From positions 1-64,000 of the forward strand of contig DAIDGV010000027.1 in assembly GCA_027452205.1 (NCBI GenBank): a DNA stretch of 64,000 nt. The letters are read 5' to 3'. This DNA is from a candidate division FCPU426 bacterium (GTDB lineage: Bacteria > Oederibacteriota > Muellerivitia > Muellerivitales > Muellerivitaceae). Position 1 is the first letter of the stretch. Each line of letters begins with the position of its first letter. Made by a program: the position numbers and the translations under genes. Shown in pieces: positions 10,235-55,775 of this stretch. The notes beneath the pieces are model-generated. The model was given only the letters and a program-made list of their open reading frames with translations, did not search any database and was not told where the DNA came from.

Positions 10235-11900
<1,666 letters not shown>

Positions 11901-12005
11901 TTAAGAATTAAGAATTTTAAATTATGAATTATGGAAAGTTTCAATTTGAACTTCGAAATTGAAACTCACAACAATTCTTAATTATTAATTCAAAAGTCTT
12001 AATTG
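11901..12005. repeat. AT-rich palindromic element F between pyrB and pyrC
   Basis: A ~105-bp imperfect inverted repeat, almost entirely A and T. Outer arms are AATTAAGAATT and AATTCTTAATTATTAATTC; the inner arms AGTTTCAATTT/AAATTGAAACT close on GAACTTCG. A shorter relative (GAATTCTTAATTATGAATT) follows groL at 45841. It interrupts an otherwise compact operon and may act as a transcript hairpin. Confidence 0.6.
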
Positions 12006-41445: not shown

Positions 41446-41583
41446 CTGAGTTACGAAGGACACTAAGGGCGCCAAGTGCCGCGAAGAAAAAATGGGTAAA
41501 GACTGAAATTCCGATTTTTAAATAAGTAGAAGGTTTTACTTTGTGATTTAACTTAGTGGTCTTGGTGCACTTTGTGGTTCAAG
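41446..41583. repeat. Intercistronic palindromic element C (GGACACTAAG type)
   Basis: A ~138-bp element fills the gap between the dehydrogenase and the hydratase. Left arm GTTACGAAGGACACTAAGG, right arm (reverse complement) CTTGAACCACAAAGTGCACC, AT-rich centre. The arms match the terminal inverted repeats around the GxxExxY gene at 54729-55199 (CTTGAACCACCAAGGACAC), so this looks like a gene-less relative. Confidence 0.65.
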
Positions 41584-41600
41584 ACTGAAAGGAAAAATGT

Positions 41601-52695: not shown

Positions 52696-53687
52696 ACCGT
52701 TTTAAAGGGTCCCCGATCTTGAGAACGACTTCTTTCCGCTTTGTGTCGATCTTTGTCCTGACGGCGATGGCCGCCTTGGCAGGCTGCCATTCCAAAGGCA
52801 AGACTGCCTTGAAGGACCTGCCCCTGCCGCCCACCGTGGATGGGGGATTGGTGAACGGCCAATTCATCCAAGTGGATTACGGCTTCGGTATCCCAGTGCC
52901 TTCCAAATGGATCTATTTGCCCCTGTCCGCCGAGCAAGAGGTGGATGAAGTGGCCCGGTTCCTGGATCCTGGCAAGGAAATGATCGTGCGCCTATCGGTT
53001 CAAATGAGGGATCCCTCCCAGAAATTCGGCACCAAGGTTTGGGTCGAGCAGGCGGAGGAAGACCTGAAGAACCATCAGTTCCAGACCGTGAAAAAAGAGA
53101 CTGTGGAAGAATGGAAAACGAACTCCGAAGAGTCCTGGATCATGGCGGCTTTCAAAATGACCGATTCCCGCAGCAACGAATGGTTCGATGAGGAGTGTGC
53201 TCTTTCCAAGGATGATTATTTGATCGTGGCCCATATGACCTTGCCCTTGAAGACCGCCCAGACGGACCATGGAAAGAAGCTTTTCCTAGCCATGGAAGAC
53301 TCTCTGAGCCGCATCACCTGGTATATGCCCATTGGGGTCCGGGGCATTTCCTCGAGCCGGTATGAATTACAGCATTTCACGGAGCAGTTCTGCCGGGCTT
53401 TGGAGAGCAAGTCGGTGGTGCAGGTGGGCGGCTATTTTGACGAGATGTATCCGGAAAAGAGCAAGTGGAACGCTTGGTACCAGCAAGCTATTGCCGGCGA
53501 TCCGAAATCCTTCGACCTGCAGGCCCAATTGAGCGGGTTGGTCATCAATGGCGACGGGGCCACGGCCTCTTTCACGCTCGTCCGCAAGGATAAAGACAAA
53601 GATTCCAAGCCGGTCAAACTGGAGCGCAATTTCAAACTGGCTAAAAAAGACAGCCAGTGGAAGATCACTTTATCGTTGGACAAATAA
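52692..53687 (+). CDS. Lipoprotein of unknown function
   Basis: About 331 residues with a type II signal peptide; lipobox ALAGC puts the lipidated Cys near residue 32, after which the mature chain is rich in charged residues. Two repeats of a mixed alpha/beta region end in the segment WYMPIGVRGISSSRYELQHF and a C-terminal domain carrying FTLVRKDKDKD. The start is TTG 52692, overlapping moxR, or TTG 52719. It belongs to the end of the Bat unit but I recognise no family. Confidence 0.6.
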   Translation: MNRFKGSPILRTTSFRFVSIFVLTAMAALAGCHSKGKTALKDLPLPPTVDGGLVNGQFIQVDYGFGIPVPSKWIYLPLSAEQEVDEVARFLDPGKEMIVRLSVQMRDPSQKFGTKVWVEQAEEDLKNHQFQTVKKETVEEWKTNSEESWIMAAFKMTDSRSNEWFDEECALSKDDYLIVAHMTLPLKTAQTDHGKKLFLAMEDSLSRITWYMPIGVRGISSSRYELQHFTEQFCRALESKSVVQVGGYFDEMYPEKSKWNAWYQQAIAGDPKSFDLQAQLSGLVINGDGATASFTLVRKDKDKDSKPVKLERNFKLAKKDSQWKITLSLDK

Positions 53688-53692
53688 AGATT

Positions 53693-53829
53693 AACCACAG
53701 AGTACACGGAGTACACAGAGTAAGGCGAAAACTGTCTAAATTTTAACGTTATGTTTTGGGTTCGAATGGCCTAGATATTTGGGTTTAGTCCCGTGAACTC
53801 TGTGGCCGCCGAAGGCGGCCTGTGGTGAA
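53693..53829. repeat. Intercistronic palindromic element D (CCACAGAGT type)
   Basis: Left arm AACCACAGAGTACACGGAGT, right arm (reverse complement) CCACAGAGTTCACGGGAC, AT-rich centre; it fills the gap between the lipoprotein stop and yicC. The right arm is interrupted by a second small palindrome, GGCCGCC-GAA-GGCGGCC (53804-53820), flanked by exact copies of CTGTGG (53800-53805 and 53820-53825). Confidence 0.7.
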
Positions 53830-53854
53830 ATTGTTTAGGAAATGAGAGGCATCT

Positions 53855-54727
53855 ATGCGTAGCATGACAGGCTTTGGCCGGGGAACCGGGGAATCCAAGA
53901 CGGTACAAGTCGTGGCCGAGATCAAGACGGTCAATCACAAGTTCCATGACATTTCCGCCAAAATGCCTTCTTCCTATCAGTTCCTGGAGCCGGACGTGCG
54001 CGAAGTGGTCCTGGGTTCGGTCACCCGGGGCAAGGTGGAGATCTTCATCAAGGACCTGTCGCCGGACCGGAAAAGGACCATCCGTCTCAACGAAGAACTG
54101 ATCGACGAATATCTCAAAGTCTCCAAAAAAGCCGCGACCAAGTTCAAGCTCAAGGGTGAGCTTTCCATCGAGACCCTGCTCAAGATGCCCGATGTGCTGC
54201 AAGTGGTCGAGGAAGAACGCCAGGAAGCGGACCAGAAAAAAGCGCTGGTCGCCGCGGTCGAGGAAGCCTTGAAAGCGCTGGAAAAGATGCGCCAATCCGA
54301 AGGCGGGCGCCTGGGCAAGGATATGTTGGAAAAGGCCAAGGAAATTTCGCAAGTGGTCAATCAAGTCCGTCAACGCCACAAAGTGGTCGTTGCTGAAAAG
54401 GTCAGGGCCTTCAAAGAGAAGATCACCGATTTTCTGCCCGAGCCTTTGATCGATCAGGTCCGATTAGCCACAGAAGAGACAGTCATCCTGCAACGCCACG
54501 ATATTGCCGAAGAGTTGACCCGGTTGGACAGCCATTTAGAGGCCCTTCAGGAAACCCTGAAGGATAAGGGCGCGGTGGGCCGCAAATTGGACTTCCTCAT
54601 CCAGGAAATGAACCGGGAAGTGAATACGACGGGCTCCAAGTCGGCGGACGCCAAGATGGCCCAAAGCGTGGTGCGGCTTAAGGAGTTGTTGGAACAACTG
54701 CGGGAACAGATCCAAAATATAGAATAA
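53855..54727 (+). CDS. yicC: YicC family endoribonuclease
   Basis: A 290-residue YicC/YloC protein; the N-terminal signature MRSMTGFGRG and the C-terminal DUF1732 segment GRKLDFLIQEMNREVNTTGSK are diagnostic. YicC has been described as an endoribonuclease affecting small-RNA stability. It starts the widely conserved yicC-gmk-rpoZ-coaBC string, here interrupted by a mobile-looking gene. AATGAGAGG precedes the start. Confidence 0.92.
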   Translation: MRSMTGFGRGTGESKTVQVVAEIKTVNHKFHDISAKMPSSYQFLEPDVREVVLGSVTRGKVEIFIKDLSPDRKRTIRLNEELIDEYLKVSKKAATKFKLKGELSIETLLKMPDVLQVVEEERQEADQKKALVAAVEEALKALEKMRQSEGGRLGKDMLEKAKEISQVVNQVRQRHKVVVAEKVRAFKEKITDFLPEPLIDQVRLATEETVILQRHDIAEELTRLDSHLEALQETLKDKGAVGRKLDFLIQEMNREVNTTGSKSADAKMAQSVVRLKELLEQLREQIQNIE

Positions 54728-54728
54728 T

Positions 54729-55199
54729 CTTGAATCTCAAAGTTCACGAAGACCACAAAGTGATAAACACTAAGAATTTCAAGCCGATACCGGCAGAAAT
54801 TGAAAAGATTGGAAAATCCGTTTTGGATGCGGCTTTTCGGATTCATTCCTCTTTGGGGCCGGGTTTATTGGAAAGTGTTTATGAGTCTTGCTTAGTCCAT
54901 GAATTGTCCAAGTCTGGTATCGTTTGTCAGCGTCAAGTTGGATTGCCTGTTGTTTATGATGATTTGAAATTCGAGGAAGGCTTCCGGATTGATGTTCTGG
55001 TTGAAAATAAGATCGTTCTTGAACTGAAGTCTGCGGAAGCACTACTGCCGGTCCATCAGGCGCAAATGCTGACTTATCTTCGTCTTTTTGGGTGTCGGTT
55101 GGGCTATTTGATTAATTTTAAAACCGTGTCTTTGAAAAGCGGCATCAAAAGGTTTATTTTGTGAGAACTTTGTGATCTTAGTGTCCTTGGTGGTTCAAG
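54729..55199. mobile_element. Putative element: GxxExxY gene with terminal inverted repeats
   Basis: The GxxExxY gene lies between inverted arms of about 40 bp: CTTGAATCTCAAAGTTCACG (54729) and, at 55161-55199, the reverse complement beginning CTTGAACCACCAAGGACAC; I count about 28 of 39 positions alike. The unit begins two bases after the yicC stop and ends exactly before the gmk ATG, splitting a conserved operon. The left arm contains the gene's start codon. Elements A-D share the arm style but lack the gene. Mobility is inferred; no target duplication was identified. Confidence 0.55.
54760..55164 (+). CDS. GxxExxY protein, PD-(D/E)XK-like
   Basis: A 134-residue member of the GxxExxY family: the naming motif reads GPGLLESVYE (near residue 32), and the nuclease-like core is FRIDVLVENKIVLELKSAE, where Asp, Glu and Lys match the D-ExK pattern of PD-(D/E)XK enzymes. 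Further typical segments are HQAQMLTYLRL and LGYLINF. The family is common in multiple copies in some phyla, and its function is unknown. The start is GTG 54760 or TTG 54730, both within the left inverted repeat. Base composition is lower in G+C than yicC and gmk. Confidence 0.8.
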   Translation: MINTKNFKPIPAEIEKIGKSVLDAAFRIHSSLGPGLLESVYESCLVHELSKSGIVCQRQVGLPVVYDDLKFEEGFRIDVLVENKIVLELKSAEALLPVHQAQMLTYLRLFGCRLGYLINFKTVSLKSGIKRFIL

Positions 55200-55775
55200 A
55201 TGAATGTTAAAAGAAAAGGGTTGCTGATCGTTCTTTCCTCCCCCTCGGGCGGGGGAAAGACCACCATTGCGCACCAACTCATGGCCAAGGACAAGAACAT
55301 TGTCCGGTCCATTTCCTGTACGACCCGCAAGCCCCGTTCGGGTGAGAAAAGTGGCCGAGATTATTTCTTTGTGACCGTTCCTAAGTTTAAAGCCATGGTA
55401 AAAGCGAAGAAGTTCCTGGAGTGGGCCAAAGTGCATCAAAATTTTTACGGCACCCCGGCCCATTGGGTGGAGGCCCAACTGAAGAAGGGGAAAGATGTCC
55501 TCTTCGTCATCGATGTTCAAGGCGGCAAGATCATTAAGCACAAGGCCCCCCATGCCCTTTTGGTTTTCGTAAAGCCTCCCAGTTTCACGGTCCTGAAACA
55601 GCGGCTTTTGGGCCGGAAGAGCGATAGCGCGGAAGCCCTGAAAGTGCGCCTGAGCGACGCCAAGTGGGAAATGAAAGAGGGGAAGCATTACGATCATCGG
55701 GTGATCAATGACCGTTTATCCCACGCGGTCAAAGAAGTCCGAAAAATCATTCAAAACGAACGAAAAAAAGCCTGA
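55200..55775 (+). CDS. gmk: Guanylate kinase
   Basis: GMP + ATP to GDP + ADP. 191 residues; P-loop SSPSGGGKTT at about 13-22, SCTTRKPRSGE near 39, GRDYFFV near 52 and FVIDVQG near 103. The ATG directly follows the right arm of the mobile-looking element, whose GGTGG must serve as the ribosome-binding site if any. Followed by a terminator-like hairpin and a separate rpoZ promoter. Confidence 0.95.
   Translation: MNVKRKGLLIVLSSPSGGGKTTIAHQLMAKDKNIVRSISCTTRKPRSGEKSGRDYFFVTVPKFKAMVKAKKFLEWAKVHQNFYGTPAHWVEAQLKKGKDVLFVIDVQGGKIIKHKAPHALLVFVKPPSFTVLKQRLLGRKSDSAEALKVRLSDAKWEMKEGKHYDHRVINDRLSHAVKEVRKIIQNERKKA

Follow-up and report, generated by a model that had tools for sequence, protein, structure and literature searches.

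What kind of genetic unit is the GxxExxY gene that lies between yicC and gmk in this candidate division FCPU426 bacterium? In the window, that is, the whole 64,000-nucleotide stretch of contig DAIDGV010000027.1 that was analyzed, the first-pass annotation had placed such a gene, with inverted arms on both sides, between the yicC stop and the gmk start, and this arrangement is confirmed here (Table 1). The inverted arms had been estimated at about 40 bp; they are present, but measure 35 nt each, with 28 of the 35 positions matching (ATCTTGAATCTCAAAGTTCACGAAGACCACAAAGT versus the reverse complement of ATCTTGAACCACCAAGGACACTAAGATCACAAAGT), and their score was equalled in none of 5000 shuffles and at none of 1219 window positions with this geometry. 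The arms are runs of the short units CACGAAG, CACAAAG, CACTAAG and CACCAAG and were found by local alignment; a generic repeat finder gave no match there because of the mismatches between the arms. The open reading frame, the only one between the arms, matches the TIGR04256 profile with 142 bits (E 9.8e-42 in a profile search; the curated cut-off is 35 bits) and PF13366 (PDDEXK_3) with 140 bits (E 5.4e-41), placing its product in the GxxExxY family.

Table 1. Genes, inverted arms and gene-less hairpins in the window (strand given where assigned).
Feature	Position	Strand	Details
Gene-less hairpin, AATTAAGAATTAAG..CTTAATT	11899-12004		arm family of L322
Gene-less CACNAAG hairpin at a gene junction	41450..41590 (ends approximate)		L008
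Gene-less CACAGAG hairpin	53693..53835		AACCACAGAGTACACGGAGTACACAGAG .. GTGAACTCTGTGG, 3' arm decayed; arm units as in L009; read directly
yicC, upstream flanking gene	53855..54727	+	PF03755 and PF08340
Left inverted arm	54727..54761	+	units CACGAAGAC-CACAAAGTG; local inverted alignment
GxxExxY gene	54730..55164	+	144 aa from TTG 54730 or 134 aa from GTG 54760
Right inverted arm	55167..55201	-	reverse complement CACCAAGGA-CACTAAGAT-CACAAAGT; local inverted alignment
gmk, downstream flanking gene	55200..55775	+	PF00625

The outer 1-2 nt of the arms extend into the yicC stop and the gmk ATG. The GxxExxY gene may start at the TTG within the left arm or, more probably, at the GTG on the inner edge of that arm; the spacing that results from the GTG agrees with that in the relative L016. 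The genes yicC and gmk are otherwise close, as had been supposed, with a short gap between them in two relatives (G006 and G008) and about 100 nt in a third (G004). Empty sites, also anticipated, were found in G004 and G006, where the junction contains no GxxExxY gene, but in G005 it is occupied. The copies from this junction in the genome under study and in G005 are not joined in the protein tree, in which support is weak. The window copy is a real GxxExxY gene-plus-hairpin element, lodged in the yicC|gmk junction.

The conserved motifs of the GxxExxY protein are GxGxxExxY, D, ExK and QxxxY; in 38 sequences, E48, D88, E98, K100 and Q112 (in the numbering of the 144-aa form) are invariant, and Y116 is nearly so. 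The AF2 model (pLDDT 88.9) finds its best PDB match in Cas4 SSO0001 (E 4.4e-4), followed by lambda exonuclease, and domain searches matched only nuclease families, with no recombinase, Y1/HUH domain or known transposase among the hits. By its sequence and predicted fold, GxxExxY belongs to the PD-(D/E)XK nucleases of Cas4/lambda-exonuclease type, with all of the characteristic residues retained and a presumed nuclease activity. In the literature that we searched, there was nothing on the function of GxxExxY or its association with hairpins, and nothing relevant on the arm sequences or on palindromes in Flavobacterium.

The enclosure of the gene in a hairpin is by no means peculiar to the window. 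The genome under study contains six GxxExxY loci, including one remnant and one with a stop, and inverted arms enclose all six, with a different arm sequence at each (CACAGAG, CAGATGCAGGGGAT, GATGAACATTGATG, CGGATAAACGCCGAT, CACGAAG and CACCAAG); even the weakest pair, GATGAACATTGATG, scores 15.5 versus a shuffle maximum of 12. Among the relatives, about 82% of 51 GxxExxY loci reach an arm score of at least 18, compared with 0 of 26 gmk controls. Similarly, 81% of 79 loci from many phyla (Bacteroidota, Pseudomonadota, Chloroflexota, Verrucomicrobiota, Planctomycetota, Acidobacteriota, a Methanosarcinales archaeon and others) are armed, versus 8% with swapped flanks and 3% with flanks taken 1 kb out; this set was fetched by one conserved motif and consists almost entirely of the GPGLLE subfamily, so that the evidence is mainly for that subfamily. 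The inverted ends that the first-pass annotation expected at other GxxExxY flanks thus recur, as a type of architecture, at nearly every locus. A complete element is about 450-730 bp long and comprises two matched arms, 25-45 bp long and consisting of 3-4 imperfect tandem units (8-11 nt) apiece, and a single nuclease ORF in the loop. Neighboring arm units are mostly spaced 8-11 nt apart, and the sequence at the outer end, ahead of the first CRCNRAG unit, approximates TTNACC. A single transposon family with fixed terminal repeats is ruled out, because the arms match within a locus but differ between loci.

The elements lie tightly against genes. According to mechanical ORF calls for the 79 loci, the median distance between the upstream gene's edge and the start of the left arm is 5 nt (15 nt or less in 66% of the cases), and GxxExxY is co-directional with that gene at 68 of the 79 loci. 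The sites include trpD|trpC, leuD|leuB, asnS|rpoN, hemW|cyclase, fabD|fabG and radA|FAD-dependent protein (several of these gene names were read from the sequence), and the gene is present in 101 of the 198 Bacteroidota sampled. We also considered a defense or cargo gene of phages or plasmids, which is ruled out by the presence of GxxExxY in 0 of 50,697 phage records and 8 of 72,556 plasmid records and by the housekeeping genes that flank the hits H1, H2 and H4.

Location behind stop codons and co-directionality could also be the marks of host features, that is, terminators or mRNA-stability elements that are homogenized by template switching and in which GxxExxY, as a chromosomal repair or defense gene, happens to settle. 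The strength of the hairpins (folding z of -3.0 to -9.9 for five gene-less elements) and the speed with which hairpins of several families turn over would fit this explanation as well. It does not, however, account for the presence of arms at 81-82% of the GxxExxY loci as against none of the 26 gmk loci, for the near lack of arms in genomes without the gene or for an arm class that follows the protein subfamily within one genome, and we consider it improbable.

The last of these points is borne out by a comparison of subfamilies. Arms of the CRCNRRG class flank 74 of 85 GPGLLE-type loci versus 0 of 14 loci of other subfamilies (Fisher 1.2e-10), which mostly have GAT-type arms instead. The tree gives a 100/100 clade for subfamily B, and the FLEKVYEN subfamily forms a separate clade with 100/100 support. 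Both protein types, each with its own arm class, coexist in the genome that contains the window; because two protein-arm pairings are found within one genome, base composition offers no explanation. Thus, the arm class covaries with the protein subfamily. This covariation, along with the occurrence of the same gene family within arms across unrelated phyla, argues against GxxExxY being cargo of a non-autonomous passenger moved by another transposase, in the manner of an ordinary IS or MITE. Although the MITE-like arms, the gene-less copies and the intergenic distribution are all compatible with such a passenger, the window element has no other ORF between its arms, and the odds of this explanation appear to us to be very small.

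In genomes that carry GxxExxY, gene-less hairpins consisting of the arms and a short loop, about 60-200 nt in all, are dispersed. One of those in the window, of the CACAGAG type, sits between the stop of the preceding ORF (at 53687) and yicC. We scanned 59 genomes of relatives with a pattern of three CACNRAG units and, independently, a set of 198 Bacteroidota with a wider arm pattern: arms were detected in 14 of the 59 genomes, 13 of which have GxxExxY (p=6e-7), and in 41 of the 198, of which 40 have it (p=5e-13; Spearman 0.53), a correlation that is trivial in part, given that every gene comes with two arms of its own, and that is drawn from genomes of shared ancestry, which are not phylogenetically independent. 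The informative side of the correlation is that arms occur in only 2 of 135 genomes without GxxExxY. Furthermore, arm counts are far above two per gene, with 40 arms in the genome under study and 136 arms versus 7 genes in G005, and a control with the reversed pattern gave almost zero matches. Thus, the gene-less repeats follow the presence of the gene in two sets of genomes, as the first-pass annotation had anticipated.

Among the relatives, the exception is G052, which has 29 CAC-type arms and no GxxExxY. This genome yields 19 hits to S23-like genes (see below), many of them arranged as back-to-back pairs, and two of the S23-like hits are located near a cluster of CAC arms on its contig C2, where they are perhaps another driver of the same arms.

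A de novo search for hairpins in the genome under study, which covered contig C24 (700 kb), yielded 23 short inverted repeats, compared with none after shuffling. Many of the 23 bear the arm sequences of the GxxExxY genes of this genome, and a few adjoin tRNA-like sequences and are probably unrelated. Nested hairpins, with an AATTC-type hairpin within the loop of one of the CAGATGCAGGGG type, occur in several copies on this contig (G000:C24 350812, 496884, 510304 and 633537).

Occupancy of orthologous junctions is variable, and hairpins are exchanged there between sister species. At asnS|rpoN in Flavobacterium, the junction holds a GxxExxY element of 460-729 nt in some species and a short AT-rich spacer or a hairpin of an unrelated kind in others. 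Flanks that are 98.7% identical enclose wholly different stop-to-start sequences in F. anhuiense (L190) and its neighbor G127 (L217), and the alternative hairpin of G127 is itself dispersed, its family being matched at 22 places of the G127 genome; the same alternation was found in two further pairs with flanks of 94.3% and 91.9% identity. In the same genus, the hemW|cyclase junction is filled in at least 7 species; its other occupants are GAT hairpins, a CAC hairpin that lacks the gene, and spacers measuring 21-26 nt. Two Flavobacterium species (L355 and L364) have other inserts at this junction, of 1034 and 1102 nt, with no match to GxxExxY.

In a 200-kb comparison of the sister species G060 and G127, other intergenic hairpins were found to be exchanged and one to be inverted in place. 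The inverted element is a 98-nt hairpin (G060:C10 ~119397 versus G127:C27). Elsewhere in this pair, opposite G060:C10 ~152761, an intergenic insert of G127 contains an apparent toxin-antitoxin pair (an addiction-module protein and a RelE/ParE-like protein, named by eye), whereas G060 has a hairpin at that place.

Many elements look old at their site, which implies that movement is infrequent; the trpD|trpC copies of three beta-proteobacterial bins, for example, are more closely related to one another than to any other copy. A search for target duplication at the outer ends (TTNACC) found none that could be resolved, with no close filled/empty pair having a resolvable junction, and no filled/empty pair from the same species was obtained, so that insertion is not visible at the base level. 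The turnover looks as though one hairpin had replaced another while the junction stayed the same, and less like a simple insertion.

At one pair of loci (L153/L166), the gene is 98% identical within flanks of about 82% identity and the tract is centered on the element, a pattern that resembles gene conversion and is suggestive only, because the pair was picked out as conspicuous. This tract, the reuse of identical junctions across species and a nuclease fold that includes neither a recombinase nor an HUH domain all speak for homing, in which the hairpins would pre-exist, GxxExxY would cut gene-less hairpins or empty junctions and would be copied into them by gene conversion, and the gene-less hairpins would be targets rather than offspring. 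Left unexplained by homing are the dispersed gene-less hairpins with the same arms, which are nearly missing where the gene is absent; moreover, unrelated arms at one site offer no homology for homing of the ordinary kind. Among the rival explanations, homing into resident hairpins is the foremost; we deem it unlikely, and it may even be a component of the process that we favor.

We favor, as probable, the explanation that the hairpins with GxxExxY are small selfish elements, whose nuclease recognizes its own arms and spreads the element. The anatomy of the element, the covariation of arms and protein, the co-occurrence of gene and arms and the variable occupancy, all observed above, are consistent with this explanation, and from them we infer that the nuclease drives mobility. 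The nuclease would recognize its own arm class, most likely in the form of an extruded hairpin or cruciform, and would cut or process the arms; the ensuing repair or replication would then place a copy, either of the element or of one of its gene-less relatives, at another intergenic site or over a resident hairpin. This mode of spread can be likened to that proposed for RAYT transposases acting on REPs. The first-pass annotation had suggested that GxxExxY is the nuclease of a small mobile element: the architecture of an element and its variable occupancy stand, the nuclease is a presumptive mover, and the turnover resembles hairpin exchange, not simple insertion. Neither unconserved flanks nor fixation of the gene at this junction in all relatives, the two outcomes named there as contrary, was seen.

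GxxExxY is not the only gene in hairpins of this kind. In the same genomes, TIGR02436 (S23, four-helix-bundle) genes, which were detected in 37 of the 59 relatives, are also located between tandem-unit inverted arms (70% pass the score of 18, versus 2% for crossed and 0% for far flanks), and their arms are of other classes, with CRCNRRG in 1 of 21. The four-helix-bundle gene of the genome under study (L322) has arms of the AATTAAGAATTAAG family, and gene-less hairpins of this family recur on contig C24. Armed S23-type loci are found among L305-L334 and in the region ~159818-160246 of G060:C10. The known 23S rRNA intervening sequence (IVS) is put together in just this way, with the S23p ORF in the loop of an inverted-repeat stem (PMC4990558).

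Several known systems resemble the GxxExxY element in part. As in the RAYT-REP system (PMC2817692, PMC3116915, PMC8266576), a small gene is flanked by inverted palindromic repeats, gene-less copies are numerous and intergenic, and the class of the repeat is tied to the class of the protein. However, RAYT is a Y1/HUH transposase whereas the protein here is a predicted PD-(D/E)XK nuclease with no HUH domain, and REPs are palindromes of 20-40 bp whereas the arms here consist of tandem units and differ from element to element. The IVS of Coxiella and Leptospira, suspected to be selfish, shares the terminal inverted repeats, the long stem and the one small ORF in the loop (PMC4990558), but it is located in a helix of the 23S rRNA and encodes a four-helix bundle, whereas the window element is located between yicC and gmk and encodes GxxExxY. 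Homing endonuclease genes are likewise small, free-standing nuclease genes that occupy the same site across species, and the conversion-like tract of L153/L166 adds to the likeness; unlike them, the GxxExxY element has inverted arms of its own and gene-less relatives and lodges between genes rather than inside them. With MITEs and bacterial IS it has in common the short inverted ends, the autonomous and gene-less forms and the intergenic copies, but it lacks a DDE or HUH transposase and its ends vary from copy to copy; no target duplication could be resolved at its junctions. By analogy, the element would work like RAYT-REP or the IVS, and by the features tested it is a member of neither.

The window element belongs to a widespread family that has apparently not been described so far. 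More tentatively, and with somewhat more doubt than conviction, we propose a new class of mobile DNA, namely tandem-unit hairpins that spread with the aid of a non-recombinase accessory protein encoded in the loop, either a GxxExxY nuclease or an S23-type bundle, widely in bacteria and in at least one Methanosarcinales archaeon; in this class, arms and protein would co-evolve, hairpins would displace each other between genes, and the 23S rRNA IVS would be one branch. That GxxExxY and S23, two common genes of 'unknown function', both lie in the loops of fast-evolving hairpins with gene-less relatives gives them a testable role and accounts for many anonymous repeats between genes (ACCACAGAGNACACAGAG and its kin). 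It would also add a nuclease-driven type to the RAYT-REP route to interspersed palindromes.
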